64,000 nt of DNA, taken from the NCBI GenBank assembly GCA_036873755.1, contig JAVTVY010020558.1, forward strand, positions 1 through 64,000, given 5' to 3'. The notes beneath the pieces are model-generated. The model saw only the letters and a program-made list of their open reading frames with translations. It searched no databases and was not told where the DNA came from. A program made the position numbers and the translations under genes. The DNA comes from Hanleya hanleyi (lineage: Eukaryota; Mollusca; Polyplacophora; Lepidopleurida; Hanleyidae). Positions 21,028 to 44,780 of this stretch are shown here, piece after piece (within the stretch, counting starts at the first letter, position 1; the number at the start of each line of letters is the position of its first letter).

Positions 21028-21189
21028 ACGTTCGTAAAGTTAGACCGCGGTTCGCAGTTCGCAGTTCGTTATTCGACGGGACCAGTCATTTCCTCAGACA
21101 TGGAGAAAAATATCTGTATTTTCTTTATTATGAGTATTTTGAACTCCAAACTCTGCACGGTAAGAGAGAACGTCATGCTTCATATGTTT

Positions 21190-22690
21190 TCATATTCATA
21201 TCCCAAATCTGACGCGAGGAGGCGCTGCTAGGGGCGCTGTTATGAGTCTCTGGCTATCCGAATAGCGGTCTGACCTATCTGAATAGCGGTCTACCTTGCC
21301 ATATCCGATAATACAAATGCTTCGAACTTGTAAATAGGACTGTTCAGAGAGTATATCACGAGCTAGAAGATGGAGTCTTTAGTTCCCATATCGGTCGCCA
21401 GGGGGCGCTTCAAAATATTTACACTTCGAACTTATAAATACGTCTAATGAGAGAGTATTTCATGGGCTACAAGTTGGAGTCTTCAGTTTCCACATCGGCC
21501 GGCAGGGGGCGCTACTATGAATGACCGTTTACATGTCGGTCTGAATAGCGGTCTGTCCTATCTGCATAGCGGTCTAGATCGCCAGAGACAATAATATAAA
21601 CAGTTCGAACTTATAAATGGGTATAATAAGAGAGTATTTCATGGGCTACAAGTTGGAGTCATCAGTCCCTACATCGGACGCTAGGGGGCGCTACTACGAA
21701 TGACCGTTTACATGCCGATCTGAATAGCGGTCTGGCATATCTGAATAGCGGTCTAGATCGCCAGAGAGAATAATATGTACACTTTGAACTTATAAATAGG
21801 TATAACGAGAGAGTATTTCATGGGCTACAAGATGGAGTCATCAGTACCTACAATGGACGCTAGGGGGCGCAACTACGAATGACCGTTTACATGCCGGTCT
21901 GAATAGCGGTCTGACCTATCTGAATAGCGGTCTGGCCTATCTGAATAGCGGTCTAGCTTGTCAGAGCCAAAAGTATAAATGCTTGGATCTTAAAAATAGG
22001 CATGTCGAGAGAGCATGTCATCGGATAAAAGATGGCGTCTTCAGTTCCTTTATCGGGCGACAGGGGGCGCTACTATGAATGACCGTTTACATGTCGGTCT
22101 GAATAGCGGTCTGGCATATCGGAATAGCGGTCTAGATCGCCAGAGACAATAATATATACACTTCGAACTTATAAATAGGTATAATGAGAGAGTATTTCAT
22201 GGGCTACAAGTTGGAGTCATCAGTCCCTACATCGGACGCTAGGGGGCGCTACTACGAATGACCGTTTACATGCCGGTCTGAATAGCGGTCTGATCTATCT
22301 GAATAGCGGTCTGGCCTGTCTGAATAGCGGTCTAGCTTGTCAGAGCAGAAAATATAAATGATTGGAGCTGAAAAGTAGACATGTCGAGAGAGCATGCCAT
22401 CGGCTAAAAGATGGAGTCTTCAGTTCCTTATCGGGCGTCAGGGGGCGCTACTATGAATGACCGTTTACATGTCGGTCGAATAGCGGTCTGTCGTCTCTGA
22501 ATAGCGGACTAGATCGCCATAGAAAATAATATAAACACTTCGAACCTATAAATAGGTATAACGAGAGAGTATTTCATGGGCTACAAGTTGGAGTCATCAG
22601 TCCCTACATCGGACGCTAGGGGCGCTACTACGAATGACCATTTACATGCCGGTCTGAATAGCGGTCTGACCTATCTGAGTAGCGGGCAGT
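21190..22690 (+). repeat. Left terminal array, about 9 units of 180-200 bp
   Basis: Units contain TCTGAATAGCGGTCTGACC words repeated 2-3 times at about 19-bp spacing, then AGGGGGCGCTACTACGAATG, and ...TATAAATAGGTATAATGAG... spacers. Reverse complement of the right array. Confidence 0.9.
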
Positions 22691-22960
22691 AGTATACAAA
22701 GAGCGGATTGTCTCTCATTGACCTTTGACATCTGTGGAGGTGGGGAGGTCAAAGGTCATTGAGTGCACTATAATTTCGGCAAAGGTTACGTGGTTGGCAT
22801 GGTGATGTCACTTGACCTTTGGGGCATGTATTTCGTCGCGGTGATGCGGTCTGGCGGTGATGCGGTCGGCCTCCGCGGACAGAAAGTAGTCCCAAAAACG
22901 TGGGTATTCGTGAGAATCATCGACAATCTTAAGGGGCGAGAGGGGCGACACCCCACACGA
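22691..22960 (+). repeat. Left inner end of element 1
   Basis: Reverse-complement copy of 39,868-40,142. It contains GGTCAAAGGTCATTGAGTGC, GGTGATGCGGTC repeated twice, and CGGACAGAAAGTAGTCCCA. The same block marks 49,040-49,180 and 57,920-58,020 in element 3. Confidence 0.85.
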
Positions 22961-22978
22961 CATATTTGAACCAAGGAT

Positions 22979-25900
22979 GGGATAACTTTAGTATTCAGAT
23001 CATAGACGTCGTCTATCCATCTACTAAGGATTCCCCTTTTGGATTTGAGAGAAAAATCCGAGAGCGGGAATTATTCTGGATGCTAGAACTTGGGTCAGTG
23101 TTTCCGTTTGGTTTAAATGATAATGTCAGTGGGTTCGGCAATGCTACAAACCGCCGTTCAAATATATCCAACATTACCCAACTATTTAAACCCCATCAAC
23201 GGAGACATCGCAGCCATGGTTGGCGAAAGTTTAATAGTTCGATGATTCACGATCATATCACTTTAACTTACTTAGTGGGTTTAACTAACACACCCAATAG
23301 TATACATAGCTTACGTACAGTTCTGTATGCGTTACCTCTGAGAGCTTTAGATCAAATAGCCAGAGATATACAACAATCTGCGTCTTCAGGAAATATAATA
23401 TCATCAAAAATCATTAAAGTATGTCAAGATATAGCGTATTTTCGGTTGTATCGTCCAGAGAACATAACCGAAACCTCTCAAGATCGGCTTTTCTTGAAAC
23501 TCAACTACCTAGATAAAGGACTGGACATCATTAATTTACCTCGAATCCTGAATGATCCAGAGGTACGCAACGCTGTACCAAACTATTTTAAGTTCACAGA
23601 ACCTCCTTGCATTTCATATAAGTACACTAAATCTATAGCCACCAAAATATTCAATTACTCAAATGCTGTCCAGGAGTTTGACTGGAACTTATACACGTCA
23701 GGAGGCTATAGTTGTGATTGTGAATCGTCGAACTTTATCTATACACCATGCAAACATATTGTGACTGGTGACCTTGATGTGGTGAGTGATAAGGATCTGA
23801 AATTACTCATGATGAAGGGACCTAAATATAGAGAGCCAAGAAGAATAAATCTGAAGGCCGACCAGAAGATAGTCCTGTCTGCATTGGAACAGTACGTTAT
23901 TGATTGGTCTAAGCGAGAAAAAGTTGAACCTACAGTACTCGCTGATTGGCTGGACCTCATCAAGAGCAAGGTCGTTGAAACAGTCTGCCATATTGACAGA
24001 AGTACCTTTCCCCAAGCAAAACAAGTACTGAGGAACCCCAGTTCGCAAGAAGTTCTAACAAATCTCCAGAGTAAATTCGTCATAGTCCCAGCTGACAAAG
24101 CTCCGAATAATATAATATTCATATGTAAATATTACTATTACCAGATGCTGGTTAAGGAATTGAGTGTAGACATATCTTCATCAAATACGTTTACTTACTC
24201 CCAAACCGCATTTACTCTGGAAGATTTATTTAACAATCACAAAAAGTTTCTCAGGGAAAGAGGTATTTGTCTTCCAACCAATCATAACGACATACCAAAA
24301 ATATACTGGACTCCCAAAATGCATAAATCACCATACAAAGCTAGATTCATAGCTGGTTCTAGAAGCTGCACCACCAAGCTTCTTTCAACCCTATTGACGA
24401 GGGCCCTTCAGGAGGTAAAAGCATTTTGGGAAAGGTATTGCGCCACTATTTCTAAGAACTCTGGCGTTGAATGTATGTGGATATTGAAAAACTCAAAATG
24501 TCTTACGGAAGAACTTGATGCTAAAGGTCACATACAGTACAGACATGTATCCACATGGGATTTCTCGACTCTCTATACTACAATCCCTCATCAGGACCTT
24601 ATTGACCGTCTAAGTTCATTAATAGTATCTGTGTTCAAGAAAACTGATCGTAGATATATTAATGTCGGAAGCCATAAAGCATTCTTTAGCTCGACTACAT
24701 ACAAGAGATATCGTTCATGGGATGTTTCTTTGTTGATAGAGTTGCTTGAATTTCTCATTAAAAATATCTGTGTGAAATTTGGCAACACAATATATCAGCA
24801 GCATATAGGTATTCCAATGGGTACTAATTGTGCACCCCTGTTGGCCGACCTGTATCTGTTCTCTTATGAATATGACTATATGCAGGCGCTTTCAAAACCG
24901 ATCCATTCAAAGCCCGTTCCCTCTCATTCACCAAACGCTATATAGACGATCTTCTCGCTGTGGATAATCGCTATATAAATGACGCAGTGAAGGATATATA
25001 TCCACCTTCACTGGATTTGAAGGAAACTACAGATTACAACACATATAAGGGAAGTGGGAAGAGGTGCCGACATACTGACTGCGTCACATGACTTCACAGA
25101 ATAGTCTTCTGGTAACCCTATTCTAAAGCACATACCAAGAATCTAACGATTCGTGATATGTGTTGTATCTCAGGTACGCTTTTATTGTACCTGTTCATGT
25201 GGCAACTTGGATGATATGACCACACGGCCCCTAGCACCGGCATAAGCGGTATTAGATACAAATCTAGAGAGCTATGATGGAAATGCTCTGACAACTCGTA
25301 GACTGGTAATTGGTGAGCTGTTTCGCTGTGACAACTCGTACATTGGAGATTGGTGAGCTGTATCATCGTCAGATGTAAATGACGGCAATTAACACAAAAG
25401 ACTAGTCTGTAAGGCCCGATGTCGACCCAGCATCAACTTCCCACAAATGCCAACATATATCAAAGACCAAAAGGTCTGTACAGGGGGCGGGCCTCGGGGA
25501 CGAAACGTCCACCAGCAGAATCTCGCCATATACAGGAATAAATTACAACACATATAAGGGAAGTGGGAAGAGGTGCCGACATACTGACTGCGTCACATGA
25601 CTTCACAGAATAGTCTTCTGGTAAACCTATTCTAAAGCACATACCAAGAATCTAACGATTCATGATATGTGTTGTATCTCAGGTACGCTTTTATTGTACC
25701 TGTTCATGTGGCAACTTGGATGATATGACCACACGGCCCCTAGCACCGGCATAAGCGGTATTAGATACAAATCTAGAGAGCTATGATGGAATTGCTCTGA
25801 CAACTCGTATACTGGTAATTGGTGAGCTGTTTCGCTGTGACAACTCGTACATTGGAGATTGGTGAGCTGTATCATCGTCAGATGTAAATGACGGCAATTA

Positions 25901-27290
25901 ACACAAAAGTCTAGTCTGTAAGGCCCGATGTCGACCCAGCATCAACTTCCCACAAATGCCAACATATATCAAAGACCAAAAGGTCTGTACAGGGGGCGGG
26001 CCTCGGGGACGAAACGTCCACCAGCAGAATCTCGCCATATACAGGAATAAATTACAACACATATAAGGGAAGTGGGAAGAGGTGCCGACATACTGACTGC
26101 GTCACATGACTTCACAGAATGGTCTTCTGGTAAACCTATTCTAAAGCACATACCAAGAATCTAACGATTCGTGATATGTGTTGTATCTCAGGTACGCTTT
26201 TATTGTACCTGTTCATGTGGCAACTTGGATGATATGACCACACGGCCCCTAGCACCGGCATCAGCGGTATTAGATACAAATCTAGAGAGCTATGATGGAA
26301 TTGCTCTGACAACTCGTATATTGATAATTGGCGAGCTGTTTCGCTGTGACAACTCGTACACTGGGTATTGGTGAGCTGTATCGTCGTCAGATGAAAATGA
26401 CGGCATTTAACACAAAAGACTAGTCTGTAAGGCCCGATGTCGACCCAGCATCAACTTCCCACAAATGCCAACATATATCAAAGATCAAAAGGTCTGTACA
26501 GGGGGCGGGCCTCGGGGACGAAACGTCCACCAGATCTGATTTAGATCTCTATCTCTATAAAAATAAAGCGGGCATTCTCTCACGTCGACTTTATGACAAA
26601 AGAGATGATTACAATTTCGACATCGTAAACCATCCCTTTCTGGATAGTAATGTTCCAGTGGGACCTGCATATGGCGTATACATATCTCGCTTAGTAGCAT
26701 TTGCTAGATCCTGTGTTAAATGTGATGATTTTAATCAACGTCACAAAACTTTGTTGCAGAAACTTATAAAACAGGGCTATTCCACCAAGCGCCTCCACTC
26801 AAAGTTTCTCAAATTTGGCGATACATATCGCATGCTGATAGCAAAATACGAACGTAGCGTGCAAGATAAATGGCGCTATGTTTCGTAACTTGTGCCTAAT
26901 TCCGCTTAACCCGGGGCTAGGGGCCGTATGAACTCATGTACCTCAAGATCCTCAAGGTACTCATATGAACAGTCACAATCAAAGCGTGACTGAGATACAT
27001 CTTTTTTTTAGATGACGATTCTATAACGAATATTATGGATTAAGAATACTGATCAGCGATACGGATTTGATATTTTTGGAACATCATGATGTCTTGCCGG
27101 CATCATTGAAAACTGTTGACCGCTTCTCTCTTGCAGGAAACAAGCCTATGTGTATGTATACTATGATTGTCTTTTTGAATTTGGTGCTAATACTGTTATG
27201 TGGAAAATGGAATAGGTCTTTGGATTATGGACGCGGATATTCTCTAATGGGCGACGGCTGGATTATGAATGACGGATTAGACGCTTGTAA
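22979..27290 (+). mobile_element. Penelope-like element 1 with split reverse transcriptase
   Basis: The coding part is open from 22,979 to 24,945 (the formal ORF starts at a TTG in flanking DNA, so there is no true start). N-terminal FERKIRERELFWMLELGSV resembles the tail of a GIY-YIG nuclease placed before the reverse transcriptase, as in Naiad/Chlamys-type Penelope-like elements. A CxC...CxH cluster (CDC, CKH) precedes KGPKYREPRRINL. Reverse transcriptase landmarks are FSTLYTTIPH, GIPMGTNCAPLLADLY and, after the break, RYIDDLL with the catalytic Asp pair. Lesions: one A missing in the run at 24,892-24,896 compared with the two other copies, and a 1.5-kb tandem repeat inserted at 25,034. The C-terminal part resumes at 26,540 and stops at 26,888; a shared 3' region runs to about 27,290. 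The element sits in a B module after GGATGG. Confidence 0.8.
25034..26533 (+). repeat. Three tandem copies of a 509-bp unit
   Basis: TTACAACACATATAAGGG recurs at 25,034, 25,543 and 26,052, exactly 509 bp apart; the last copy ends at ...CGTCCACCAG (26,533). Copies are nearly identical. The unit contains GAGCTGT/CAACTCGTA hairpins and GGACGAAACGTCC. It interrupts the reverse transcriptase of the Penelope-like element. A slightly longer-than-unit copy, inverted, interrupts the ATPase gene at 56,124-56,656. Part of it (CGGTATTAGATACA, GGCCCCTAGCACCGGC) resembles the Penelope 3' region at 26,890-27,000. The minus-strand 60-80 residue ORFs are repeat artefacts. Confidence 0.9.
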
Positions 27291-28440
27291 TTTACCCCAA
27301 ACACACCTCCGCGCAGCCCCCCAAATGGCCACTTTACTTACTACACACAACTGCGCATGCGCACAATATCGAAAACTGAAGATACCTTAGTCCAGTCGGG
27401 TGCTCTTCCAAGAGTGCTTCAAAATAAAACCTCATACGACACTATGGGACCAATAGGGGCTCACCTAGACCCCAAAACGTCCGCCCAGTATGGACTTATC
27501 CCCCTAAGCCAGTATGGGCCTATATGGGCCTATGTACAGACCTACCCGGTACTTTTCGAAAAATTTCACCGCTTACCTTCGAGACCCCACCCATTGTGTT
27601 CTACATGGTGAGACGTGAAAAACATGACCAAACAACCCATATCGCAATGAACATGTGTGAATTTCCCAGTATGGACCTATAACCCATAGCCAGTATGGGC
27701 CTAAAAACAGACCTACCCGGTACTTTTAAAAAAATGTCACCGCTTAGCTCCAGGACCCTTCCTATTGTGTTTTCATGGCGAGACGTGAAAAACAAGACCA
27801 AACAACCCATAGTAAACTAAAAAAAATAAAAAGACAACCCCCCACCATACCCCATACAGGCATTTTCTCGTATATTGCATAATACAGGCCCCTATTGTAG
27901 AGGTAAATGCCGTGTTCCGCTTTTTATATTTTCGGGAGACAAATCCTCAATTTACATACACCCACCCTGCCTCTCTCAGCAGGCTCCGATAAGCCAGGGG
28001 CCGATATTCGCCCTTTTGAATAGGGTTGATAGGAGTTTTCCTCTATTTTAGGGTTAAAGTCCGTGTTCCGCTTTTCATATTTTCGGGGACAAATCTTCAT
28101 TTTACATGAACCCACCCATGCACCCAGGCCCCGATAAGCCCGGGGTACCGATATTAGCCCTTTGGGATAGGGTTGATAGAGGTTTTACTCTATTGTAGGG
28201 GTAAAGTCCGTGTTCCGCTTTTTATATTTTCGGGACAAATCCTAAATTTACATACACCCACTCTCCCACCCTACCTCTCTCAGCAGGCCCCGATAAGCCA
28301 GGGACCGATATTAGCCCTTTGGGATAGGATTGATATTGGTTTTCTCCTATTGAAGGGGTAAAGTCCGTGTTCCGCTTTTTATATTTTCGAGACAAATCCT
28401 AAATTTACATGCACCCATTCACGGCTTGAGGAGCGCTTTA
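27291..28440 (+). repeat. Modules C, D, E (in the same orientation as the right arm)
   Basis: C: ACACACAACTGCGCATGCGC. D: CAGTATGGACTTATCCCCC and GACCTACCCGGTACTTTTC. E: four units with CCGTGTTCCGCTTTTTATAT. Order and direction equal 38,516-39,830. A mirror arm should carry them inverted, so this block has flipped. Confidence 0.8.
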
Positions 28441-28790
28441 CTTTGACACCTCACTCGATTCCACCAAGCACTCGGGGTGTAGACCCCGATTTGAGGAATG
28501 TACACGTCATCTGTGAGGTGTGGGCCATCGGTGACGTCATCCGTACGAGTATTAGCGAAAGTGGGCATTTTGGGGAAGTGAAAGAAGGTATTTTGTGTAG
28601 AGATGGACCATCCTTGGTCCGAATGCGTCTGGTGGGGTGTCATCTTGTAGACTTCGGGGTGGAAACCACGATTTGAGGGATGTCCACAGCATCTGTGACG
28701 TCAATGGTGACGTCATCAGTATGAGTAGTAGCGAAAGTGGGCTTTTGGGGCAGTGAAGGAGGGTATTTGGTGTAGAGATGGACAATCCAT
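28441..28790 (-). repeat. Module B, inverted, with paired CRE-like sites
   Basis: Two copies with GGTGTAGAGATGGAC, ATCTGTGACGTCAATGG and TGACGTCATCAGTATGAG. Reverse complement of 38,150-38,515. Confidence 0.8.
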
Positions 28791-29310
28791 ATCTCTTATG
28801 CATTATACCATATCTTTGCTGTACTATACCATATTTGTCCTGCATTATACCAAACCTGTGTTGTATTATACCATAACTGTCCTGAATTATACCATATCTG
28901 TGCTGTATTATACCAAATCTGTCCTGTGTTGTACCGTATTTGTCCTCTATTATACCGTATTTGTCCTGTATTATACCAAATCTGTCCTGTATTATACAGT
29001 ATCTGTCCTGTATTATAACAAATCTGTGCTGTATTATACCAAATCTGTGCTGTATTATACAGTATCTGTCCTGCATTAGACCAAATCTGTGCTGTATTAT
29101 ACCATATCTCTCCTGTATTGAACCATATATGTCCTGTATTATACAATATATGTTCTGTATTCTGTATTATAGCAAATCTGTGCTGCATTATACTGTATCT
29201 GTCCTGTATTATACCAAATCTGTGCTGTATTATACCATATTTGTCCTGTATTGTACCATATATGTCCTGTATTATACAATATATGTTCTGTATTATACAA
29301 TCGGATAGCG
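28791..29310 (-). repeat. Module A: 21-bp array
   Basis: About 24 units of CTGTCCTGTATTATACCATAT (one unit is 21 bp). 21 is a multiple of three, so several frames stay open for 100-170 codons on both strands; these are not genes. Inverted counterpart at 37,735-38,150. Confidence 0.9.
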
Positions 29311-29405: not shown

Positions 29406-29573
29406 TTTAGTATGTTCACAGCAAAACAAGTTGAAATATCAAACACCTTTTATTATTTAACGCACCGTCACATTACGTACAAGTGTTTACTGAGCTCAAG
29501 TCAACGATCAGCATGTAGACATATAGAGTATGTACGGCATGTTATGGTATTCATCAGTGCACGGGTGACGCAT

Positions 29574-30146
29574 TCAACCGATGGGGTTGATCAGTTTAAC
29601 CACGAAGAACGTAACATTGGTGACCCTCTCCACCGTCCACTTGGTGATGGGGCGTTCTTGTTGGGCCCATTCCACGGGATCCACGGTGTCCAGTTTCTCC
29701 AGCATCGTCTCCAGTGACGCACGATTGGTAATAGTGAACGGCTGGTCAAACACATAGATATTATTGCTGGGATAATAATACCGTAACTGGTCCGTCTCTT
29801 TCTGGCGTAAGATGTGCCCGAAAGCGACATTCAATTTGAAGGCCGTAGTTTGGTCGCTGAAGATGGGTTCCACGTAGCTACGTAGACGGGCCAGGTCGGT
29901 CAGTCGGAAATTGTAGACATCTTGAATAGGGCGATGACGGTTGAAACAGTGCCGTATCATGGACCAATGGCGCCGAGAGATGTCACTCACCGGATGGGCG
30001 TCCTGTAAGAGATCGCTAGGAACATTTTTGAGCTCGTCCAGAAAATGTTCGATGTTGTCAGGCGTATGACTCGAAACCGTAACGCTGGGGTCCGGCTGGA
30101 TATTCAGGCTCTTCTGAACTGTGGGTATAGGCGGCCTCTCCTTCAT
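29574..30146 (-). CDS. Polymerase-N-terminal-like protein, copy a (intact)
   Basis: 190 residues, ATG at 30,146. Conserved blocks are HPVSDISRRHWSMIRHCF, YNFRLTDLARLRSYVE, TTAFKLNVAFGHILR, RYYYPSNNIYVFDQPF and WTVERVTNVTFFVVKL. This TAFKLN...FGxIL...RYxY...WVVExxTNVTF pattern is one I know from the region before the catalytic core in Polinton/adintovirus-like DNA polymerases of invertebrates. Here it ends after about 190 residues, before any polymerase motif. It follows the C2H2 gene of the same strand by 90 bp. Three more copies in this element are broken; only this one is whole. It may act in protein-primed replication or may simply be a relic. Confidence 0.6.
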   Translation of the reverse strand: MKERPPIPTVQKSLNIQPDPSVTVSSHTPDNIEHFLDELKNVPSDLLQDAHPVSDISRRHWSMIRHCFNRHRPIQDVYNFRLTDLARLRSYVEPIFSDQTTAFKLNVAFGHILRQKETDQLRYYYPSNNIYVFDQPFTITNRASLETMLEKLDTVDPVEWAQQERPITKWTVERVTNVTFFVVKLINPIG

Positions 30147-30236
30147 CGCATCACCAGTGGCGTTCGTCTCCTCGGGCTAATCTTCACTGGGTCTGACATT
30201 CCGCGGCTCCTCTTCAGTGGGAAGCTGTCGCTCATG

Positions 30237-30494
30237 TCATGGTACCGGGGCATGAATCAAACGTTGATGTCGCAGCAACTGACTGGTCAGTTTGAAAAGC
30301 CGACCACATTCCTCACATGGACGCTTGCGTGACCCATGAATTGAACGTTCATGGCGCAGTAAAGCATCTTCCCGATTAAATGACCGTGCGCAGGTTATAC
30401 AAATATACCGTCCGCCGTTGTGGGCAGCGGTCTCGTGGCGACGTAAACTGTCTAGACGAGTAAACTGCTTCCGGCAAGTTGTGCAAGTGAACAT
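30237..30494 (-). CDS. Three-finger C2H2 protein, copy a (intact)
   Basis: 85 residues made almost entirely of three C2H2 fingers: CTTC...RRHETAAH (about 3-25), CITC...RHERSIH (about 31-53) and CEEC...RHQRLIH (about 59-81). It starts at MFTCTTC and stops after ...HAPVP. Two further copies lie at 34,907 (plus) and 36,546 (plus). Its promoter region has been separated from it by the Penelope-like insertion at 30,545-33,313. A DNA-binding role at the terminal arrays is plausible but unproven. Confidence 0.65.
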   Translation of the reverse strand: MFTCTTCRKQFTRLDSLRRHETAAHNGGRYICITCARSFNREDALLRHERSIHGSRKRPCEECGRLFKLTSQLLRHQRLIHAPVP

Positions 30495-30544
30495 CTTGGT
30501 AGTTGACAGAGTGTCTGATGAAACGGCCAGGCCGCTTTCCTCTT

Positions 30545-33313
30545 ATTACAAGCGTCTGGTCCGTCATTCATAACTCAGCCGTCGTCCATTAGAGAATATC
30601 TGCGTCCATAATCCAAAGACCTATTCCATATTCCATATAACAGTTTTAGCACCAAATTCAAAACGACAATAATAGTATACATAAACATAGGCTTGTTTCC
30701 TGCAAGAGAGAAGCGGTCAACAGTTTTCAATGATGCAGGCAAGACATCACGATGTTCCAAAAATATCAAATCCGTATCGCTGATCAGTATTCTTAATCCA
30801 TAATATTTGTTGTAAAGTTGTCACCTAAAGAATGATGTATCTCAGTCACGCTTTGATTGTGGCCCCTAGCCCCGGGTTAAGCGGAATTAGACACAAGTTA
30901 CGAAACGTAACGCCACAGATCTTGCACGCTACGCTCGTATTTTGCTATCAGCATGCGCGCCAAATTTGAGAAACTTTGAGTGCAGGCGCTTGGTTGTGTA
31001 GCTCTGTTTTATAAGTTTCTAAAACAATGTTTTGTGACGTTGATTAAAATCGTCACATTTAACACAGGATCTAGCAAATGCTACTAGGCGTGACATGTAT
31101 ACGACATATGCAGGTCCCACTGGAATATTACTGTCCAGAAAGGGATAGTTCACGATGTCGAAATTGTAATCATCTCTTTTGTCATACAGTCGGCGGGAGA
31201 GAAGGCCCGCTACATTTTTCTAAATAGGATGTGCCTGTAGGGTTATCATTAGTTTCCTTCAAATCCAGTGCAGGTGGATATATATCCTTCACTGTGTCAC
31301 TTATATAGCGATTATCCACAGCGAGAAGATCGTCTATATAGCGTTTGTTGAATGAGAAGGAACGGGCTTTGAATGGATCGGTTTTTGAAAGCGCCTGCAT
31401 ATAGTCATATTCATAAGAGAACAGATATAGGTCAGCCAACAGGGGTGCACAATTAGTACCCATTGGAATACCTATATGCTACTGATATATTGTGTTGCCA
31501 AATTTCACATAGATATTATTCATGAGAAATTCAAGCAACTCTATAAACAAAGAAACAACCCATGAATGATATCTCTTGTATGTAGTAGAGCTAAATAATG
31601 CTTTATGGCATCCGACATTAATATATCTACGATCAGTTTTCCTGAACACAGATAATATTAATGAACTTAGACGGTCAATAAGGTCCTGATGAGGGATTGT
31701 AGTATAGAGAGTCGAGAAATCCCATGTGGATACATGTCTATACGGTATGTGACCTTTAGCATCAAGTTCTTCCGTAATACATTTTGAGTTTTTCAATATC
31801 CACATACATTCAACGCCAGAGTTTTTAGAAATAGTGGCGCAATACCTTTCCCAAAATGTTTTTACCTCCTGAAGGGCCCTCGTCAACAGGATTGAAAGAA
31901 GCTTGGTGGTGCAGCTTCTAAAACCAGCTATGAATCTAGCTTTGTATGGTGATTTATGCATTTTGGGGCTCCAGTATACTTTTGATATATCATTATGTTT
32001 GGTTGGAATACAAATACCTCTTTCCTTGAGAAACGCTTTGTGATTGTTAAATAAATCTTCCAGAGAAAATGCAGTTTGAGAGTAAGTAGACGTATTTGAT
32101 GACGATATATTTACACTCAATTCTTCATCCAGCACCTGGTAATAGTAATATTTTCTGATGAATATTATATTATTTGGAGCTTTGTCTGCTGGGACTATGA
32201 CGAATTTACTCTGGAGATTTGTTAGAACTTCTTGCGAACTGGGGTTTCTCAGTACTTGTTTTGCTTGGGGAAAGGTACTTCTGTCAATATGGCAGACTGT
32301 TTCAACGACCTTGCTCTTGATGAGGTCCAGCCAATCAGCGAGTACTGTAGGTTCAACTTTTTCTCGATTAGACCAATGAATAACGTACTGTTCCAAAGCA
32401 GACAGGACTATCTTCTGGTCGGCCTTCAGATTTATATTTCTCGGCTCTCTATATTTAGGTCCCTTCATCAGGAGTAATCTTAGGTCCTTATCACTCACGA
32501 CATCAAGATCACCAGTCACAATATGTTTGCATGGTGTATAAAGTTCGACGATTCACAATCACAACTATAGCCACCCGACGTGTATAAGTTCCAGTCAAAC
32601 TCCTTGACAGCATTAGAGTAATTGAATATTTTGGTGGCTATAGATTTGGTATACTTATATGAAATGCAAGGAGGTTCGGTGAACTTCAAATAGTTTGGTA
32701 GAGTGTTGCGTACCTCTGGATCATTTAGGATTCGACGTAAATTAATAATGTCCAGTCCTTTATCTAAGTAGTTGAGTTTCAACAAAAGCCGATCTTGGGA
32801 TGTTTCGATTATGTTCACTGGACGATACAACCGAAAATACGCTATATGTTGACATACTTTAGTGATTTTGGGTGATATTGTATTTCCGGAAGACGCAGAT
32901 TGTTGTATATCTTTGGCTATATGATTTAAACCTCTCAGAGGTAACGCATACAGAACTGTACGTAAGCTATGTGTACTATTGGGTGTGTTAGCTAAACCCA
33001 CTAAGTTATTTAAGGTGATATGATCGTGAATCATCGCACTATTAAATTTTCTCCAACGATGGCTGCGATGTCTCCGTTGATGGGGTTTAAATAGCTGGGT
33101 AATATTGGATATATTTGAACGGCAGGTTGTAACATTGCCGAACCCAATGACATTATCATTTAAACCGTACGGAAACACTGACCCAAGCTCTAGCATCTAG
33201 AATAGTTCCCGCTCTCGGTTTTTTCTCTCAAATCCAAAGGGGGAATCATTGGTAGATGGATAGACGATATCTATGATCTGGATACTAAAGTTGTCCCAGG
33301 AATGGTCGGGTCC
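30545..33313 (-). mobile_element. Penelope-like element 2 (minus strand), pseudogene
   Basis: Same family as 22,979-27,290, about 95% identical by eye, without the 509-bp array. Minus-strand coding blocks are 33,250-32,516, 32,519-31,479 and 31,463-31,182, then to about 30,895. Breaks: a frameshift at the CxC...CxH cluster (near 32,525), a CAG-to-TAG stop just before the GIPMGTN motif (near 31,470), and a frameshift after 31,200. Catalytic YIDD is still present. It is inserted between the promoter region and ATG of zinc-finger copy a. Its 3' end is ATTACAAGCGTCTGG at 30,544, as in the other copies. Confidence 0.8.
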
Positions 33314-34490: not shown

Positions 34491-34548
34491 AGGGGGCGCC
34501 CCCTGTCGGAAGTAGTAGGAGGTCAATATCGGGGCGCCACCTGTCTTG
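34485..34548. repeat. 64-bp inverted repeat at the symmetry centre
   Basis: CAAGACAGGGGGCGCCCCCT at the left and GGGGCGCCACCTGTCTTG at the right are inverted. It lies where the leftward and rightward cassettes meet, so it may be a mini-MITE or the scar of the fusion. Confidence 0.65.
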
Positions 34549-35192: not shown

Positions 35193-35337
35193 GGTCGATA
35201 CTTGGTGTAAGAACGCATTGTTGAGGCTTTTGTTGAGACTTTTGTGCAGCTGAAAAGGGTCACGTCTAGACGCATTGTTGAGCTCAGACAGGCTATTGTA
35301 GGCTTTGTCTTGTGCGTTCTTACACCAAGTATAAACC
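35193..35337. mobile_element. 145-bp MITE with 8-bp TSD
   Basis: Ends GGTCGATACTTGGTGTAAGA and TCTTACACCAAGTATAAACC are inverted. Perfect direct repeats GACAGTAG flank it (35,185-35,192 and 35,338-35,345). Inserted between zinc-finger copy c and the downstream gene. Confidence 0.85.
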
Positions 35338-35443
35338 GACAGTAGGCATCAGTATCGAGACAGCGGGAACTCCCACCCATCGCACGAGGGCCGATGATGA
35401 TTATGTCGCCCTAATTTAACAGTCAAATTCAGACTTCAAGACC

Positions 35444-35975
35444 TTGGACCAGATTTTGTACGACGTGGAGGGCAAAGTACACTTCGTGGACGAACCCATA
35501 AATGTTCCTAGCGATCTGTTACACGAAGACCATCCAGTGAGTAACATCTATCGGCGCCATTGGCCCATGATTCGGCACTGCTTCTGCCGTCATCACCCTA
35601 TTCAAGATATCTACAATTTCCAGCTGACCGACCACGCCCGTCTAAGCAGCTACGTGGAAGCCATCTTCAACGATCAAACTACGGCCTTCAGGTTGAATCT
35701 GGCGTTTGGTTATGTGCTGCAGCATAAGTACACAGACCAAGCCCGATACTTTTACCCGAGCAGTAACATCCGGGTCTTTGACCAACCGTTTACCATCATT
35801 AACCGGGCGTCGCTAGAGACGATGCTGGAGGAACTGGACACCGTGGATCCCTTGGAATGGGCCCAATAACAACGCCCCAACACACAATGGGTCGTAGAGA
35901 GGATGCCCAATGTCACGTTTTTCGTTACCAAGCTGACCGTCCATCCCCATCGGCTGAATGCGTCACCCATGCACT
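35444..35975 (+). pseudogene. Polymerase-N-terminal-like protein, copy c
   Basis: Homologous to copy a from about NVPSDLL onward. The open stretch starts at a TTG and has no convincing ATG. A TAA interrupts at 35,867-35,869, in WAQ-QRPNTQW, and the final block (VERMPNVTFFVTKLT) continues in frame beyond. The 5' part was damaged when the MITE arrived or before. Confidence 0.65.
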
Positions 35976-36039
35976 GATGAATACCATAACATGTCGTACA
36001 TACTCTATATGTTTACATGCTGATCGTTGACGGCGTCAA

Positions 36040-36545
36040 CGCCAGGTGGTGGTGGTGGTGTGAGGATAATAAAACGTGTAAAACGCAATGTGCCTGTTGT
36101 TGTTTATGTCTCTTGGTTGTGTTTGTATTGAATGGGCCTGAGCATATTGATGCGATGAGAGGAAGTTTTCGGAGAGAACGTAATTCTACATTGTGCACGG
36201 ATGGATAGAAACACAAACAAATACTCACACACGCGCGCAATGCGGCTCATAAAAAACCCGGATGTAAACTGAGGACCCGGATGCAAAACCACAGTACCCG
36301 GATGGTAGACGGAGGAACGACGGGAACAACCCGCTTGGAAACCCGGATGTTGACAAGATCCCGGATGTAAAATCCACTGATCCCACACACACTCACGCGC
36401 AATACGGCTCAGTCGTACACCAGTACATCTCGGTCCTCGACTTGGGGGTAGTTGAACTGAGTGTGCTAAAAATAGATCACCAGCTAGCGTGCAAAAAAAG
36501 GAAAGCGGCCTGGCCGTTTCATCAGACACCCTGTCAACCACCAAG
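36040..36545 (+). promoter_or_regulatory. Spacer and promoter region of zinc-finger copy d
   Basis: CCAGGTGGTGGTGG run, AATAAAACG, then ACCCGGATG words and the shared block with CTCAGTCGTACACCAGTACA. At the position of the copy-c TATA box this copy reads GTGCAAAAAAAGG, so the box is lost. Confidence 0.5.
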
Positions 36546-36806
36546 ATGTTCACTTGCACAACAAGGCAGAAGCAGTTTCCTCGTCTAGACAATTTACGTC
36601 GCCACGAGACCGCCGCCCCCAACGGCGGACGGTATACTTGTATAACCTGCGCACGGTCATTTAATCGGGAGGATGCTTTACTGCGCCATGAACGTTCAAT
36701 TCATGGGTACCAATCTTCCATGCGGGGAATGTGGTCGGCTTCTCAAACCGACCAGTCATTTGCTGCGACACTAACGTTTGATTCATGCCCCGGCACCATG
36801 GCATGA
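36546..36806 (+). pseudogene. Three-finger C2H2 protein, copy d
   Basis: The first finger lacks one Cys (CTTR) and one His (TAAP replaces TAAH). The second is intact. The third is destroyed by a frameshift after RHERSIHG. Starts at ATG 36,546; an upstream ATG at 36,489 lies in promoter-like sequence. Confidence 0.65.
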
Positions 36807-36891
36807 CCGACAACTTCCCACTGAAGAGGAGCCGCGGAATGTCAGACCCAGTGGAGATTAGCCCGAGGAGACGAACGCCACTGGTGATGCG

Positions 36892-37452
36892 ATGACGGAG
36901 AGCCCGCCTATACCCACAGTTCAGAAGAGCCTGGATATCCAGCCGGACCCCAGCGTTAAGGTTTCGAGTCATACGGCTGACAACATCGAACATTTTCTGG
37001 ACGAGCCCATAAATGTTCCTAGCGATCTCTTACAGGACGTCCATCCAGTGAGTGACATCTCTCGGCGCCATTGGTCCATGATACGGCACTGTTTCAACCG
37101 TCATCGCCCTGTTCAAGATATCTACAATTTCCGACTGACCCACCTGGCCAGTGTACGTAGCTACGTGGAAGCCATCTTCAACGACAGAACTACGGCCTTC
37201 AATTGAATGTCGCTTTTGGGTACTCACGCCGCAAAGGGACGGACCAGTTACGGTATTATTATCCCAGCAATAATATCTATGTGTTTGACCAGCCGTTCAC
37301 TATTACCAATCGTGCGTCACTGGAGACGATGCTGGAGAAACCGTGGATCCCTTAGAATGGGCCCAACAACAACGCCCCAACACCAAGTGGACAGTGGAGA
37401 GGGTCACCAATGTTACGTTCTTCGTGGTTAAACTGATCAACCCCAAAGGCTG
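36892..37452 (+). pseudogene. Polymerase-N-terminal-like protein, copy d
   Basis: Closest to copy a (same MTES/MKER-PPIPTVQKSL start). The frame stops at TTCAATTGA (37,206), where copy a reads TTCAAATTG. It is shifted again near 37,340, then ends with VERVTNVTFFVVKLI-like sequence near 37,452. Confidence 0.7.
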
Positions 37453-37624
37453 AATGCGTCACCCGTGCACTGATGAATACCATAACATGCCGTACATACT
37501 CTATATGTATACATGCTGATCGTTGACTTGAGCTCAGTAAACACTTGTACCTAATGTGACGGCGCGTTAAATAATAAAACATGGTGTTTGATATTTCAAT
37601 TTGTTTTGCTGTGAACATACTAAA

Positions 37625-37690
37625 CATGCCCAGGGCGGCTCCCCCAGCCTGGGTATGATGTAACATTGGGGATAATAAACTGCATGAACA
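37625..37690 (+). terminator. Shared 3' module (right arm)
   Basis: GGCGGCTCCCCCAGCCTGGG, TGTAACATTGGGG, ATAATAAAC. Same block as at 4,445-4,510, and inverted at 29,345 and 52,455. Confidence 0.65.
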
Positions 37691-37734
37691 TTGCTGAACT
37701 TGTTGTTATTCACGACAACCGCTATTCGATTGTA

Positions 37735-38150
37735 TAACACAGAACATATATTGTATAATACATGACATATATGGTACAATACAGGATAGATATGGTATAA
37801 TACTGCACAGATTTGGTCTAATACAGGACAGATACTGTATAATACAGCAGATTTGGTATAATACAGCACAGATTTGTTATAATACAGGACAGATACTGTA
37901 TAATACAGGACAGATTTGGTATAATACAGGACATATATGGTACAATAGAGTACAAATATGGTACAATACAAGACAGATTTGGTATAATACAGGACAGATA
38001 TTGTTTAACACAGGGCAGATATGGTATAATCCAGCACAGATATGGTATAATTCAGGACAGATATGGTATAATACAGCACACATTTGGCATAATGCAGGAC
38101 AGATATGGTATAATACAGCAAAGATATGGTATAATGCATGACAGATATGG
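37735..38150 (+). repeat. Module A: 21-bp array (right)
   Basis: About 19 units of GATATGGTATAATACAGGACA. Mirror of 28,791-29,310. ORFs are repeat artefacts. Confidence 0.9.
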
Positions 38151-39867
38151 ATGGTCCATCTCTACACCAAATACCCTCCTTCACTGCCCCAAAATGCCCA
38201 CTTTCGCTACTACTCGTACTGATGACGTCACTAATGACGTCACAGATGCTGTGCACATCCCTCAAATCGTGGTCTCCACCACGAGAACTACAAGATGACA
38301 CCCCACACGACGCATTCGGACCATTAGTGGTCCATCTCTACACCAAAAACCTTCCTTCACTTCCCCAAAATGCCCACTTTCGCTACTACTCGTACTGATG
38401 ACGTCACTAATGACGTCACAGATGCTGTGTACATCCCTTAAATCGTGGTCTACACCCCAAGAGCTACAAAATGACACCCCACACGACACATTCGGACCAA
38501 GGATGGTCCATCTCTACCCCAAACACACCTCCACGCACCCCCCAAAATGACCACTTTATTTACTACACCCAACTGCGCATGCGTAGATTGACGCGACATG
38601 CACTAAAAAACACGCCATTCTGACTCTACCCCACAACAGCTTCACTTTTACACCTCCCTCGACCCATTTGGACCCATAGTGGTCCATCTCTACCCAAACA
38701 CACCCCCACGCACTCCCAAAATGCCTGCTGTCTATACTACTGCCAGACTGCGCATGCGCACATTATTGAAAACGGACGATACCTTAGTCCAGTCGGGTAC
38801 TCTTCCACGAGAGCTTCAAAATAAGACCTCATACGACACCATGGACCACTAGGGGCTCACCTAGACCCCAAAACGTCCACCCAGTATGGACTTATCCCCC
38901 TAAGCCAGTATGGGAGTATATGGGCCTATATACAGACCTACCCTGTACTTTCCCAAAAAAATCACCGCTGAGCTCCGAGACCCCTCCCATCGTGTTCTAC
39001 ATGGTGAGACGTGAACAACAAGACCAAACAACCGATATCGCAATGAACATGTGTGAATTTCCCAGTATGGATCTATACCCCCATAGCCAGTATGGGCCTA
39101 TATACAGACCTACGCGGTACTTTTCAAAACATTTCACCGCTTAGCTCCGGGACCCTTTCCATCGTGTTTTTCATGGCGAGACGTGAAAAACAAGACCAAA
39201 CAACCCATAGTAGAATCAAAAAAAAAAATGACAAACCCCCATACCCCATACAGGCATTTTCCCGTAAATTATATAATACAGGCCCCTATTGTAGAGGTAA
39301 AGTCCGTGTTCCGCTTTTTATATTTTCGGGGGACAAATCCTCAATTTACATACACCCACCCTGCCTCTCTCAGTAGGCCCTGATAAGCCAGGTGCCGATA
39401 TTCGCTCTATTGGATAGGGCTGATAGGCATTTTCCCCTATTTTAGGGGTAAAGTTCGTGTTCCACTTTTTTTATTTTCGGGGACAAATCCTCATTTTACA
39501 TGCACCCACCCATGCATCCAGACCCCGATAAGCCCGGGGGACCGATATTAGCCCTTTGGGACAGGGTTGATAGAGGTTTTCCTCTATTGTAGGGGTGAAG
39601 TCCGTGTTCTGCTTTTTATATTTTCGGGACAAATCCTAAATTTAAATACACCCACTCCACCACCCTTCCTCCCTCAGCAGGCCCCGATAAGCCAGGGACC
39701 GATATTAGCCCTTTGGGATAGGGTTTAAAGGGGTTTTCCCCTATTATAGGGGTAAAGTCCGTGTTCCGCTTTTTATATTTTCGAGACAAATCCTAAATTT
39801 ACATGCACCCATTCACGACCGGAGGAGCGTTTCACTTTGACACCTCACTCGACCGAATCAGTCCACC
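38151..39867 (+). repeat. Modules B, C, D, E (right)
   Basis: B 38,151-38,515: two copies with TGATGACGTCACTAATGACG. C 38,516-38,830: CTGCGCATGCG motifs. D 38,831-39,245: CAGTATGGACTTATCCCCC. E 39,246-39,867: four units with CCGTGTTCCGCTTTTTATAT. No conserved ORF. Confidence 0.85.
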
Positions 39868-40142
39868 AACGGCCCCTCTCGCCCCTGAAGATTGCCGAAC
39901 ATTCTAACGAAAACCCACCTATTTGGGACTACTTTCTGTCCGCAGAGGCAGACCGCATCACCGCCGGACCGCATCACCGCGGAGGAATACATGCCCCAAA
40001 GGTCAAGTGACGTCACCATGCCAACCACGTAACCTTTGCCGGAACTATAGTGCACCCAATGACCTTTGACCGCCCCACCTCCACGAAACCTCCACAGAGG
40101 TCAAAGGTTAATAAGTGTCAATTCGCACTTTGTATACTACTG
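39868..40142 (-). repeat. Right inner end of element 1
   Basis: Inverted partner of 22,691-22,960: TGGGACTACTTTCTGTCCGC, GACCGCATCACCGC repeated, ACCTTTGACC words, ending TTTGTATACTACTGACCGCT. Confidence 0.85.
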
Positions 40143-43100
40143 ACCGCTATTCAGATAGGTCAGACCACTATTTAGACCGGCACGTAAATGGTCATTCGTA
40201 GTAGCGCCCCCTAGCATCCGATGTAGGGACTGATGACTCCAACTTGTAGCCCATGAAATACTCTCTCATTATACCTATTTATAAGTTCGACGTGTATATA
40301 TTATTGTCTCTGGCGAGCTAGACCGCTATTCAGATATGCCAGACCGCTATTCAGACCTGTATGTAAACGGTTATTCGTAGTAGCGCCCCCTAGCGTCCGA
40401 CGTAGGGACTGAAGACTCCAACTTGTAGCCAATGAAATACCCTCTCATTATACCTATTTATAAGTTCGAAGTTTTTATATTATTGTCTCTGGCGATCTAG
40501 ACCGCTATTCAGATAGGTCAGACCGCTATTCAGACCGGCATGTAAACGGTCATTCGTAGTAGCGCCCCCTAGCGTCCGATGTAGGGACTGATGACCCCAT
40601 CTTTTAGCCGATGGCATGCTCTCTCGACATGCCTATTTTTAAGTTTCAACCATTTCAATTTTCGGCTCTGACAAGCCAGACCGCTATTCAGATAGGCCAG
40701 ACCGCTATTCAGATAGGTCAGACCGCTATTCAGACCGGCATGTAAACGGTCATTCGTAGTAGCGTCTCCTAGCGTCAGATGTAGGGACTGACGACTCCAT
40801 CTTTTAGCCGATGGCATGCTCTCTCGACATGCCTATTTTTAAGTTTCAAGCATTTCAATTTTCGGCTCTGACAAGCCCGACCGCTATTCAGATAGGCCAG
40901 ACCGCTATTCAGATAGGTCAGACCGCTATTCAGACCGGCATGTAAACGGTCATTCGTAGTAGCGCCCCCTAGCGTCCGATGTAGGGACTGATGACTCCAA
41001 CTTTTAGCCCATGAAATATTCTCTCATTATACCTATTTATAAGTTCGAAGTGTATATATTATTGTCTCTGGCGATCTAGACCGCTATTCAGACATGCCAG
41101 ACCGCTATTCAGACCGGCATGTAAACGTTCATTCGTAGTAGCGCCCCCTATCGTCTGATGTAGGGACTGAAGTCTCCAACTGGTGGCCAACGAAATACTC
41201 TCTCATTATACCTGTTTATAAGTTCGAAGTGTATGTATTATTGTCTCTGGCGATCTAGATCGCTATTCAGATATGCCAGACCACTATTCAGACCGGCATG
41301 TAAACGGTCATTCACAGTAGCGCCCCCTGGCGCTCGATAAAGGATCTGAAGACTCCATCTTTTAGCCGATGGCATGCTCTGTCGACATACCTATTTTTAA
41401 GTTCCAAGCATTTATATTTTCGGCTCTGACAAGCCAGACCGCTATTCAGATAGGCCAGACCGCTATTCAGATAGGTCAAACCGCTATTCAGAACGGCATG
41501 TAAATGGGCATTCGTAGTAGCGCCCCCTAGCGTCCGATGTAGGGACTGATAACTCCAACTTGTAGCCCATGAAATACTCTCTCATTATGCCTATTTATAA
41601 GTTCCAAGTGTTTATATTATTGTCTCTGGCGATCTAGACCGCTATTCAGATAGGACAGACCGCTATTCAGAACGACATGTAAACGGTCGTTCATAGTAGC
41701 GCCCCCTGGCGCCCGATAATGGAACTGAAGACTCCATCTTTTAGCCGATGGCATACTCTCTCGACATGGCTATTTTTAAGCTCCAAGCATTTAAATTTTC
41801 GGTTCTGACAAACTAGACCGCTATTCAGATAGGCCAGCCCGCTATTCAGATAGGTCAGACCGCTATTCAGACTGGCATGTAAATGGTCGTTCGTAGTAGC
41901 GCCCCTAGCGTCCGATGTAGGAACTGACGACTCCAACTTGTAGCCCATGAAATACTCTATCATTATACCTATTTATAAGTTCGAAGTGTATATATTATTG
42001 TCTCTGGTTACATAGACCGCTATTCAGATGCCAGACCGCTATTCAGACCGGCATGTAAACGGTCATTCGTAGTAGCACCCCTAGCATCCGATGTAGGGAC
42101 TGAAGACTCCAACTTGTAGCCAATGGAATACTCTCTCATTATATCTATTTATAAGTTCGAAGTGTTTATATTATTGTCTCTGGCGATCTAGACCGCTATT
42201 CAGATAGGACAGACCGCTATTCAGACCGACATGTAAAAGGTCATTCATAGTAGCGCCCCCCTGGCGCCCGATAAAGGAACTGAAGACTCCATCTTTTTCG
42301 GATGGCATGCTCTCTCGACATGCCTATTTTAAAGTTCCAAGCATTTATATTTTCGGCTCTGACAAGCTAGACCGCTATTCAGATAGGCCAGACCGCTATT
42401 CAGATAGGTCAGACCGCTATTCAGACCGGCATGTAAACGTCCATTCGTAGTAGCGTCCCCTAGCTCCCGATGTAGGGACTGATGACTCCAACTTGTAGCC
42501 CATGAAATACTCTCTCATCATACCTATTTATAAGTTCGAGGTGTATATATTATTGTCTCTGACGATAGACCGCTATTCAGACCGGCATGTAAACGGTCAT
42601 TCGTAGTAGCGCCTCCTATCGTCTGATGTGGGGACTGAAGTCTCCAACTGGTGGCCAATGAAATACTCTCTCATTATACCTATTTATAAGTTCGAAGTGT
42701 TTATGTTATTGTCTCTGGCGATCTAGATCGCTATTTAGATAGGACAGACCGCTATTCAGACCGACATGTAAACGGCCATTCCTAGTAGCGCCCCCTGGCG
42801 CCCGATAAAGGAACTGAAGACTCCATCTTTTAGACGATGGCATGCTCTCTCCACATGCCTATTTTTAAGTCCCAAGCATTTAAATTTTCGGCTCTGACAA
42901 GCTAGACCGCTATTCAGATAGGCCAGACCGCTATTCAGATAGGTCAGACCGCTATTTAGACCGACATGTAAATGGTCATTCATAGTAGCGCCCCCTGGCG
43001 CCCGATAAAGGAACTGAAGACTCCATCTTTTTCTGTTAAAGTTGCAAGCATTTATATTTTCGGCTCTGACAAGCTAGACCGCTATTCAGATAGGCCAGAC

Positions 43101-44540
43101 CGCTATTCAGATAGGTTAGACCGCTATTCAGACCGGCATGTAAACGTCCATTCGTAGTAGCGCCCCCTAGCGTCCGATGTAGGGACTGATGACTCCAACT
43201 TGTAGCCCATGAAATACTCTCTCATCATACCTATTTATAAGTTCGAGGTGTATATATTATTGTCTCTGGCGATCTAGACCGCTATTCAGACCGGCATGTA
43301 AACGGTCATTCGTAGTAGCGCCCCCTATCGTCTGATGTAGGGACTGAAGTCTCCAACTGGTGGCCAATGAAATACTCTCTCATTATACCTATTTATAAGT
43401 TCGAAGTGTTTATGTTATTGTCTCTGGCGATCTAGACCGCTATTCAGATAGGACAGACCGCTATTCAGACCGACATGTAAACGGTCATTCATAGTAGCGC
43501 CCCCTGGCGCCCGATAAAGGAACTGAAGACTTCGTCTTTTAGCCGATGGCATGCTCTCTCGGCATGCCTATTTTTAAGTTCCAATCATTTATATTTTCGG
43601 CTCTGACAAGCTAGACCGCTATTCAGATAGGCCAGACCGCTATTCAGATAGGTCAGACCGCTATTCAGACCGGCATGTAAACGGTCATTCGTAGTAGCGC
43701 CCCCTAGCGTCCGATGTAGGGACTGATGACTCCAACTTGTAGCCCATGAAATACTCTCTCATTATACCTATTTATAAGTTCGAAGTGTATATATTATTGT
43801 CTCTGGTTATCTAGACCGTTATACAGACATATGCCAGACCGCTATTCAGACCGGCATGTAAACGGTCATTCGTAGTAGCGCCCCCTAGCGTCCGATGTAG
43901 GGACTGAAGACTCCAACTGGTGGCCAATGAAATACTCTCTCATTATACCTATTTATAAGTTCGAAGTTTTTATGTTATTGTCTCTGGCGATCTAGACCGC
44001 TATTCAGATAGGACAGACCGCTATTCAGACCGACATGCAAACGGTCATTCCTAGTAGCGCCCCCTGGCGCTCGATAAAGGAACTGAAGACTCCATCTTTT
44101 AGCCGATGGCATGCTCTCTCGACATGCCTATTTCTAAGTTCCAAGCATTTATATTTTCGGCTCTGACAAGCTAGACCGCTATTCAGACAGGCCAGACCGC
44201 TATTCAGATAGGTCAGACCGCTATTCAGACCGGCATGTAAACGGTCATTCGTAGTAGCGCCCCCTAGCGTCCGATGTAGGGACTGAAGACTCCAACTTGT
44301 AGCCAATGAAGTACTCTCTCACTAGACCTATTTATAAGTTCGAGATGTTTATATTATTGTCTTTGTCGATCTAGACCGCTATTCAGGTAGGGCAGACCGC
44401 TATTCAGACCGACATGTAAACGGCCCCGTGGCGACCGATATGGTAACTGAAAACTCCATCTTCTAGCTCGTGATATACTCTCTGAACAGTCTGAGCATTT
44501 GTATTATCGGATCTAGCAGGGTAGACCGCTATTCAGATAG
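40143..44540 (-). repeat. Right terminal array, about 24 units of 160-200 bp
   Basis: Each unit has GACCGCTATTCAGATAGG words (two or three in tandem), TAGTAGCGCCCCCTAGCGTC and ATACTCTCTCATTATACCTA. Two unit types alternate (GATGTAGGGACTGATGAC and GATAAAGGAACTGAAGAC), so the array grew by higher-order duplication. Short minus-strand ORFs repeated here have no start or codon support. Confidence 0.9.
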
Positions 44541-44780
44541 GCCAGACCGCTATTCGGATAGCCAGAGACTCATAACAGCGCCCCTGGCAGCGCCCCCTGG
44601 CGTCGGATTTGGGATATGAATATGAAAACATATGAAGCAGGACTTTCTCTCTTACTATGCAGAGTTTGGAGTTCAAAATACTCATAATAAAGAAAATACA
44701 TATGTTTTTCTCCATGTCTGAGGAAATAATGACTGGTCCCCTCGAATAACGAACTGCGAACTGCGAACCGCGGTCTAACT
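44541..44780 (-). repeat. Right terminal segment of element 1
   Basis: Reverse complement of 21,038-21,270: GAGTTTGGAGTTCAAAATAC, GAGGAAATAATGACTGGTCC, GAACTGCGAACTGCGAACCG. The outermost ACGTTCGTA of the left ends is not preserved here. Confidence 0.85.

Follow-up and report, generated by a model that had tools for sequence, protein, structure and literature searches.

The window analysed here comprises 64 kb of the 2.48-Gb genome assembly of the mollusc Hanleya hanleyi (contig JAVTVY010020558.1, positions 1 to 64,000; working label C17937:1-64000), and between 21 and 45 kb it carries an element whose two halves mirror each other. The same genome holds a dispersed family of palindromic elements with ends of the Polinton/Maverick type and target site duplications (TSDs), and at four of the six loci at which both arms were available the two arms of one copy are unusually alike. 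On balance, and with no great confidence, we lean towards regarding the 21-45 kb element as a decayed copy of this family, and the family as a non-autonomous Polinton derivative that is moved in trans and whose second arm is copied during protein-primed replication. Long palindromes are usually unstable in chromosomes, and the existence of a whole family of them therefore needs explaining.

Architecture of the palindrome

Self-comparison of the whole window placed the centre of the mirror near 34.52 kb, with inverted partners on either side (features are listed in Table 1). The mirrored parts are the terminal arrays (T), the inner ends, blocks of 21-bp and 176-bp repeats, the tail and the gene cassettes, which combine C2H2 zinc fingers with a region resembling the N-terminal part of a polymerase (polN). 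Leaving aside two inserted retroelement copies, R+ and R-, 5087 of the 6302 left-arm bases and 8277 of the 10251 right-arm bases have an inverted counterpart on the other side of the centre, which is 81% of each arm (counted from BLAST matches no shorter than 100 bp with E ≤ 1e-5). The inner ends (22690-22946 and 39872-40140) are 89.9% identical and the tails 98.4%. Among the polN regions, cassettes a and d share 94.8% and b and c 94.0% identity, as opposed to 81-82.5% for the pairs a-b, c-d, a-c and b-d. Because a-d and b-c are far more alike than the other pairs, two gene types must have existed before the pair was inverted.

The sequence-only reading of this stretch had described two inverted arms of the same genes and modules, with two cassettes pointing each way. 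Self-comparison of the 21-45 kb region agrees that the inverted arms are long, amounting to more than short local repeats, and that they carry paired cassettes, a and b on the minus strand and c and d on the plus strand (b being reduced to a remnant by the loss of its zinc-finger half). What did not hold is the completeness of the mirror: R+ and R- are one-sided, and module M, the main exception, occurs twice in the same orientation (90.2% identity). The T arrays, of about 1.7 kb on the left and about 4.6 kb on the right, are unequal. We considered them as a satellite into which the element had inserted and rejected this; since they are mirrored as well, they look like element ends that have been extended.

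Other copies lie on contigs of the same assembly, to which we gave working labels (C18033, C17650, C12277, C36117, C3525, C13315 and others). A search with cassette a, in which the best 40 of 7,424 candidates were scored, gave two full cassette hits on six contigs including that of the window, and in all six the two are divergent, minus then plus. The five other contigs show the same order from the end to the centre and back, with losses. Cassette loci were seen on 24 contigs; in nine of these both arms, or the two sides of the centre, are visible, and 15 are known from stretches of up to about 4 kb, while for C13315 a short stretch and the 9 kb to its left were covered. In the fullest copy, each arm has two distinct C2H2-polN genes pointing away from the shared centre.

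The copy on C18033 occupies 16,216 bp (27868-44083). Its positions 30645-39910 align to their own reverse complement as a continuous 9.3-kb palindrome of 93.7% identity centred at 35277.5, the arms meeting with fewer than 30 nucleotides between GGCCCCTGCGCGC and its complement. Beyond this palindrome the arms continue at 97.1% and 96.5% identity, interrupted on the left by about 0.5 kb of R sequence and on the right by about 1.9 kb. Its two M modules are 97.1% alike and mirrored, and the left M of the window must therefore have been flipped later. M is also mirrored in C36117 and the left-side M of C3525 has the mirrored orientation; the flip seen in the window recurs in C13315. C3525 carries two mirrored copies next to each other, the second of which (31354-38553) has lost most of its right cassettes. 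The R- insertion is common to the window, C3525 and C13315. Because the left flanks differ, C13315 was rejected as an allele of the window.

Taken alone, the window would fit a one-off event, either a local head-to-head dimer or an inverted segmental duplication, and a single dimer event at this locus had indeed been suggested from the sequence alone. This is refuted by the occurrence of the same mirror, the same centre and the same R- insertion elsewhere, and we give it very little weight. A whole dispersed family shares the palindrome, which is thus older than the locus and moves as a unit. Palindromic chimaeras occur in long-read data. We find an assembly or sequencing artefact at the centre barely credible, because the arms differ by 2-10% with insertions and deletions, a one-arm insertion has its empty site visible opposite, the same mirror is present on other contigs and the target duplications match at three copies.

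Termini and target site duplications

The mirrored copies on C18033, C17650 and C36117 have no T at their ends, and their genes lie within the arms. They start with AGTAGT, AGCAGT and AGTAGG, respectively, and all three end with ACTACT; the family ends can be written AGTAGTATAC. The flanking 6 bp are AACATG/AACATG, CAGGAC/CAGGAC and ACCCAG/ATCCAG, i.e. identical at 6/6, 6/6 and 5/6 positions, so that a TSD accompanies every short-ended copy for which both ends were available, three in all (the element on C12277 and the second one on C3525 run off their contigs before the far end). Among random 6-mers taken from the C18033 stretch, agreement at five or more of six positions has a frequency of 0.0056, and the flanks of different copies match one another at 1-3 of six positions. 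According to a study of vertebrate Mavericks (PMC8097293), (AGT)2//(ACT)2 is their commonest end motif and is accompanied by 6-bp target duplications; the family shares both, together with a relation to type-B DNA polymerase. As to the terminal inverted repeats (TIRs) of Polintons/Mavericks, the inverted arms here reach the ends and span most of the body. By its ends and TSDs the family is classed with the Polintons/Mavericks; its gene content (see below) does not qualify it as an autonomous member.

In the window the AGTAGT-type motif lies inside the element, at 22688 and 40141, and the mirrored T arrays extend outward from it. The differing outer end of this copy is shared with C13315 and with a solitary fragment elsewhere in the window (Table 1). 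Arrays that are internally repetitive and unequal are also described for Galileo and Foldback (PMC3573991, PMC4079207), and it might be thought that internal tandem duplication lengthened the TIRs of a foldback element step by step until the two came together. Such an origin is improbable, given that three mirrored copies (C18033, C17650 and C36117) lack T and carry genes in their arms, that 6-bp TSDs go with AGTAGT-like ends, and that no transposase match was found in any C18033 open reading frame (ORF) of at least 110 amino acids.

The C2H2-polN gene

The zinc fingers and the polN region had been read from the sequence as separate genes. In intact copies they form a single ORF of 305-306 amino acids, which was found in five of nine loci looked at (L013, L018, L030, L033 and, twice, in C18033, L040). 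The ratio of non-synonymous to synonymous substitution rates (dN/dS) between type c (7 copies) and type d (4 copies) is 0.29, and 0.16 for the polN part; the two gene types have thus diverged under purifying selection. A value of 0.67 among 30 d-type copies is expected because many copies are dead. The best long relative, P0124, is 29% identical over 91% of the query (E = 7.8e-26) and consists of N-terminal zinc fingers, the polN region and further sequence, the last part of which we take to be the start of a PolB exonuclease domain, although Pfam did not show it. Assigning polN a function from its fold was considered and rejected: a predicted model of a 190-amino-acid polN ORF from the window (mean predicted local distance difference test score 72.5) gave no match in the PDB at E ≤ 0.001, the 50 structures listed all having a template modelling score below 0.3, and polN was not found in viral contigs.

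All 39 stop-to-stop ORFs of at least 110 amino acids in C18033 (one of them trimmed by 4 codons) were scanned against Pfam at E ≤ 0.01. The matches were to zinc fingers only, apart from weak ones (TPR, 3-dmu-9) mostly in frames of repeat arrays. The 21-bp arrays (Table 1; L040:5571-7157) leave several frames open, one of 529 amino acids in C18033, because the repeat unit equals seven codons, and the weak TPR-like matches in them look like chance.

Similarity between the arms of one copy

If the arms copy each other, those of one locus should be more alike than arms of different loci. The d cassette and its own partner are 98.0% identical at C18033, 96.7% at C17650, 96.6% at C12277 and 96.1% at C36117, compared with a mean of 94.3% between loci (429 pairs); the values for the window and C3525 are 94.1% and 93.0%. 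When arms were paired at random, a mean as high as that observed occurred in a fraction of 0.0006 of the trials with the six loci and of 0.0103 with the four. A tree of 21 sequences from the six loci groups arms with their own partners at C18033 (node values 96 and 98), C17650 (95), C12277 (98) and C36117 (100). When single hits from other contigs were added, giving a set of 30 sequences, own arms were sisters at C17650 (0.936) and C36117 (0.892).

A palindromic lineage encoding PolB

A second lineage of this kind was found by searching the assembly with DNA_pol_B_2. Among the matches listed, at least four contigs have two separate genes, in all cases minus then plus. The arms of C4967 (16840-23984 and 33651-26551) have 90.6% identity, each carries one C2H2-PolB gene (open frames of 1099 and 1201 amino acids, the latter matching PF03175 with E = 1.1e-38), and both ends start with AGTAGTATAG (AGTAGT). 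C41214, of which the centre was covered, has the same palindromic centre as C4967, with arms 99.1% alike over 429 columns. The centre of C4967 (23973-26550) consists of two successive palindromes of 97.5% and 90.6% identity. C28015, also with a divergent PolB pair, was rejected as a further member because the 1.4 kb at its estimated centre are not palindromic.

Comparison of the window modules with C4967 DNA gave no match at E 1e-5. At the protein level, significant BLASTP matches between the C4967 polymerase and the window protein were confined to the zinc fingers, and the C4967 PolB was for this reason rejected as the direct parent of the window protein.

How the second arm may be made

According to the reading that we favour, the integrase of a Polinton would move the element in trans, a step that we infer because C18033 yielded no integrase match. 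A single element strand would fold into a long hairpin duplex, and PolB, primed at an end, would switch strand at the centre, each arm thus serving as template for the other. The C2H2-polN protein may act on Polinton DNA, or may compete with a polymerase that has a similar N-terminal region. The copy in the window would then have been altered by the extension of its ends by mirrored T arrays, the flip of M, the loss of half a gene in b and two retroelement insertions. A protein-primed head-to-head origin, one of the possibilities raised in the sequence-only reading, is consistent with these observations.

A different explanation, which we hold to be possible without thinking it the probable one, starts from a single replication error of the host at a short inverted repeat, by template switching or by origin-dependent inverted-repeat amplification. 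The product would since have behaved as an ordinary element with long TIRs, its arms homogenised by gene conversion, a process that long palindromes do undergo. One origin suffices to account for the core sequence that is common to the centres of several copies, the window included, and the arms of the window lineage kept their differences when the element was duplicated. In yeast, the loops at stable inverted junctions measure 17 bp or more (PMC4689423), a minimum comparable to the centre of C18033. However, gene conversion should have acted in the window lineage too, yet own-arm identity there is only 93-94%. Nor would a single event account for two lineages without detectable DNA similarity, C2H2-polN and C4967/C41214, both being palindromic and C4967 also AGTAGT-ended. 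The palindrome in the separate PolB lineage favours copying during replication over gene conversion.

Several observations weigh against arm copying in a Polinton-derived element. The single shared centre also fits one origin followed by gene conversion. C36117 lacks the inner cassettes, and the right arms of C17650 and C12277 lack a full inner cassette. In the tree of 21 sequences, win_b pairs with C3525_b (100), win_c with C3525_c (99) and win_d with C3525_d (85), i.e. across loci, and R- is in the left arm only at both the window and C3525. In the 30-sequence set the right arm of C18033 is nearer to C18986 than to its own partner (98.5 against 98.0%) and the left arm of C12277 is nearer to C2849 (99.8%, possibly an allele); such arms are counted in favour of the single origin. 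No TSD was found at the outer or inner ends of the window copy, and the flanks of C4967 showed no duplication in register. Measured against the Polinton gene set, the 39 ORFs of C18033 gave no match to a retrovirus-like integrase (nor did ten window ORFs scanned), to a capsid protein or to a full PolB, and none to an ATPase or protease.

The pairing of arms across loci and the one-sidedness of R- indicate that in the window sublineage the palindrome was duplicated as a unit, its arms not being re-made. This sublineage, with T arrays outside its AGTAGT ends, may have moved in another way, which is a guess from few sites. As the comparison of 30 sequences weakens the pairing of own arms, we have lowered our confidence in arm copying and raised that in gene conversion.

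A more far-reaching proposal, which we put forward only tentatively and think unlikely as a whole, is a snap-back lifestyle of transposons: one arm would be copied head to head, the strand would fold into a full duplex, and the second arm would be re-made at each round of protein-primed copying, keeping ends and genes matched. On this view the lifestyle would have appeared at least twice within one genome, in different Polinton lineages. Palindromic elements that carry genes make the open question of how protein-primed Polintons replicate testable from sequence: a switch of strand would produce symmetric genomes, and would be recorded in the identity between their arms.

Comparison with known systems

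Head-to-head genomes arise when copying turns back, as in self-complementary adeno-associated virus genomes and symmetric adenovirus recombinants. Those are defective or engineered viral forms, unlike the inherited transposons considered here. A literature search covering titles and the beginnings of abstracts, with few subscription papers, found no description of a gene-bearing Polinton that is palindromic along its body.

In size the elements (9.8, 12.5 and 16.2 kb) are broadly similar to vertebrate Mavericks, for which PMC8097293 gives 12.7-24.6 kb. The TIRs of intact Mavericks measure 46-1,447 bp in the same source, whereas here the body itself is inverted and both arms carry outward gene sets; the whole-body mirror with duplicated cassettes is, as had been suspected from the sequence, not the Maverick layout published there. 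Among the Galileo, Foldback and Tetris elements, Galileo is assigned to the P-element superfamily by its transposase, whereas the present elements have genes in their inverted arms and Polinton-like ends. Teratorn (PMC6431247) has internal TIRs at the boundary of its long inverted repeats in addition to external ones, resembling the inner AGTAGT motifs inside the outer ends of the window copy. It differs in belonging to the piggyBac superfamily, in its herpesvirus genes and in the unique region between its inverted repeats. The dog-bone molecules of origin-dependent inverted-repeat amplification (PMC4689423) are likewise self-complementary and arranged head to head, with a short loop where the DNA turns back, but they are an intermediate of chromosomal amplification in yeast and not a dispersed element with TSDs.

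Retroelement insertions and other sequences of the window

R+ and R-, both left of the centre, were inserted separately and belong to an abundant retroelement, for which a first look at the genome gave 4,524 candidates (the best 40 were scored). The two have a common 3' end, GCTTGTAAT. The empty site of R- is visible in the right arm of the window, and R+ is absent at the corresponding place in C3525 and C13315. A third copy, truncated at its 5' end, lies at 53063-54145, and an unoccupied relative of its site is found at 3885-3887 in the same window. Given these two empty sites, the reverse transcriptase modules were rejected as part of the mirror.

We take the retroelement to be Naiad- or Penelope-like. 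As in those elements, relatives of R have a GIY-YIG domain N-terminal to the reverse transcriptase: GIY-YIG lies near the N-terminus in all five relatives scanned, followed by an RVT_1 match in three of them. The window copies, which are passengers, differ in giving no GIY-YIG match among the ten window ORFs scanned, and the reverse transcriptase match of R+ (E = 4.9e-4) is below the curated cut-off. Three tandem copies of a 509-bp unit are inserted in R+ at 25033-26531, and a single inverted copy of the unit is present at 56124-56659. A hammerhead ribozyme was considered for these repeats and rejected, there being no Rfam match at gathering thresholds.

Table 1. Features of the palindromic element and a related fragment in the window
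Feature	Position	Strand	Remarks
Left outer end and array of 179/200-bp units (T)	21028..22687	+	Starts near CGTTCGTAAAGTTAGACCGCGG; outer end common to C13315 and 11670-12049
Left inner end	22688..22946	+	First bases AGTAGTATACA, the terminus of copies with 6-bp TSD elsewhere
R+	22978..27291	+	Inserted copy of GIY-YIG/reverse transcriptase retroelement (presumably Penelope/Naiad-like); passenger outside the mirror
Module M	27296..28458	+	Orientation opposite to that expected from the mirror; same direction as its copy at 38693-39852
176-bp-type repeats and 21-bp array	28467..29298	-	Repeats 28467-28788; array 28787-29298
Cassette a	29500..30546	-	C2H2 zinc fingers 30262-30546; polN ORF 29574-30146; interrupted by stops
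R-	30554..33396	-	Second retroelement copy, confined to the left arm; insertion shared with C3525 and C13315
Cassette b, remnant	33397..34486	-	polN 33970-34486; zinc-finger half gone
Centre, remnant	34484..34586		Core in both directions: 34484-34519 minus, 34531-34586 plus
Cassette c	34855..36031	+	C2H2 34855-35190; polN 35479-36031
Cassette d	36487..37527	+	C2H2 36487-36860; polN 36990-37527
Tail, 21-bp array and 176-bp repeats	37520..38560	+	Array 37732-38150; repeats 38150-38560
Module M	38693..39852	+	Orientation as in mirrored copies
Right inner end	39872..40141	-	Last bases GTATACTACT at 40132-40141
Right array of 179/200-bp units and right outer end	40142..44781	-	Outermost bases unlike those on the left
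Solitary outer-end fragment	11670..12049	+	97.4% identical to 21028-21404

Away from the cassettes, at 2819-5700 and 52132-54538, lie sequences that are related to the 176-bp repeats and to the first half of M but have diverged from them, and M may have a mobile past of its own. Just beyond the right outer end lies a 38-bp tandem array (44909-45247). Elsewhere in the window, inverted repeat pairs at 8266-9488 (94%), 12641-12937 (93%) and 12946-14360 (86%) look like separate elements, and further tandem arrays consist of 41-bp units (263-1651) and 157-bp units (60083-61254).

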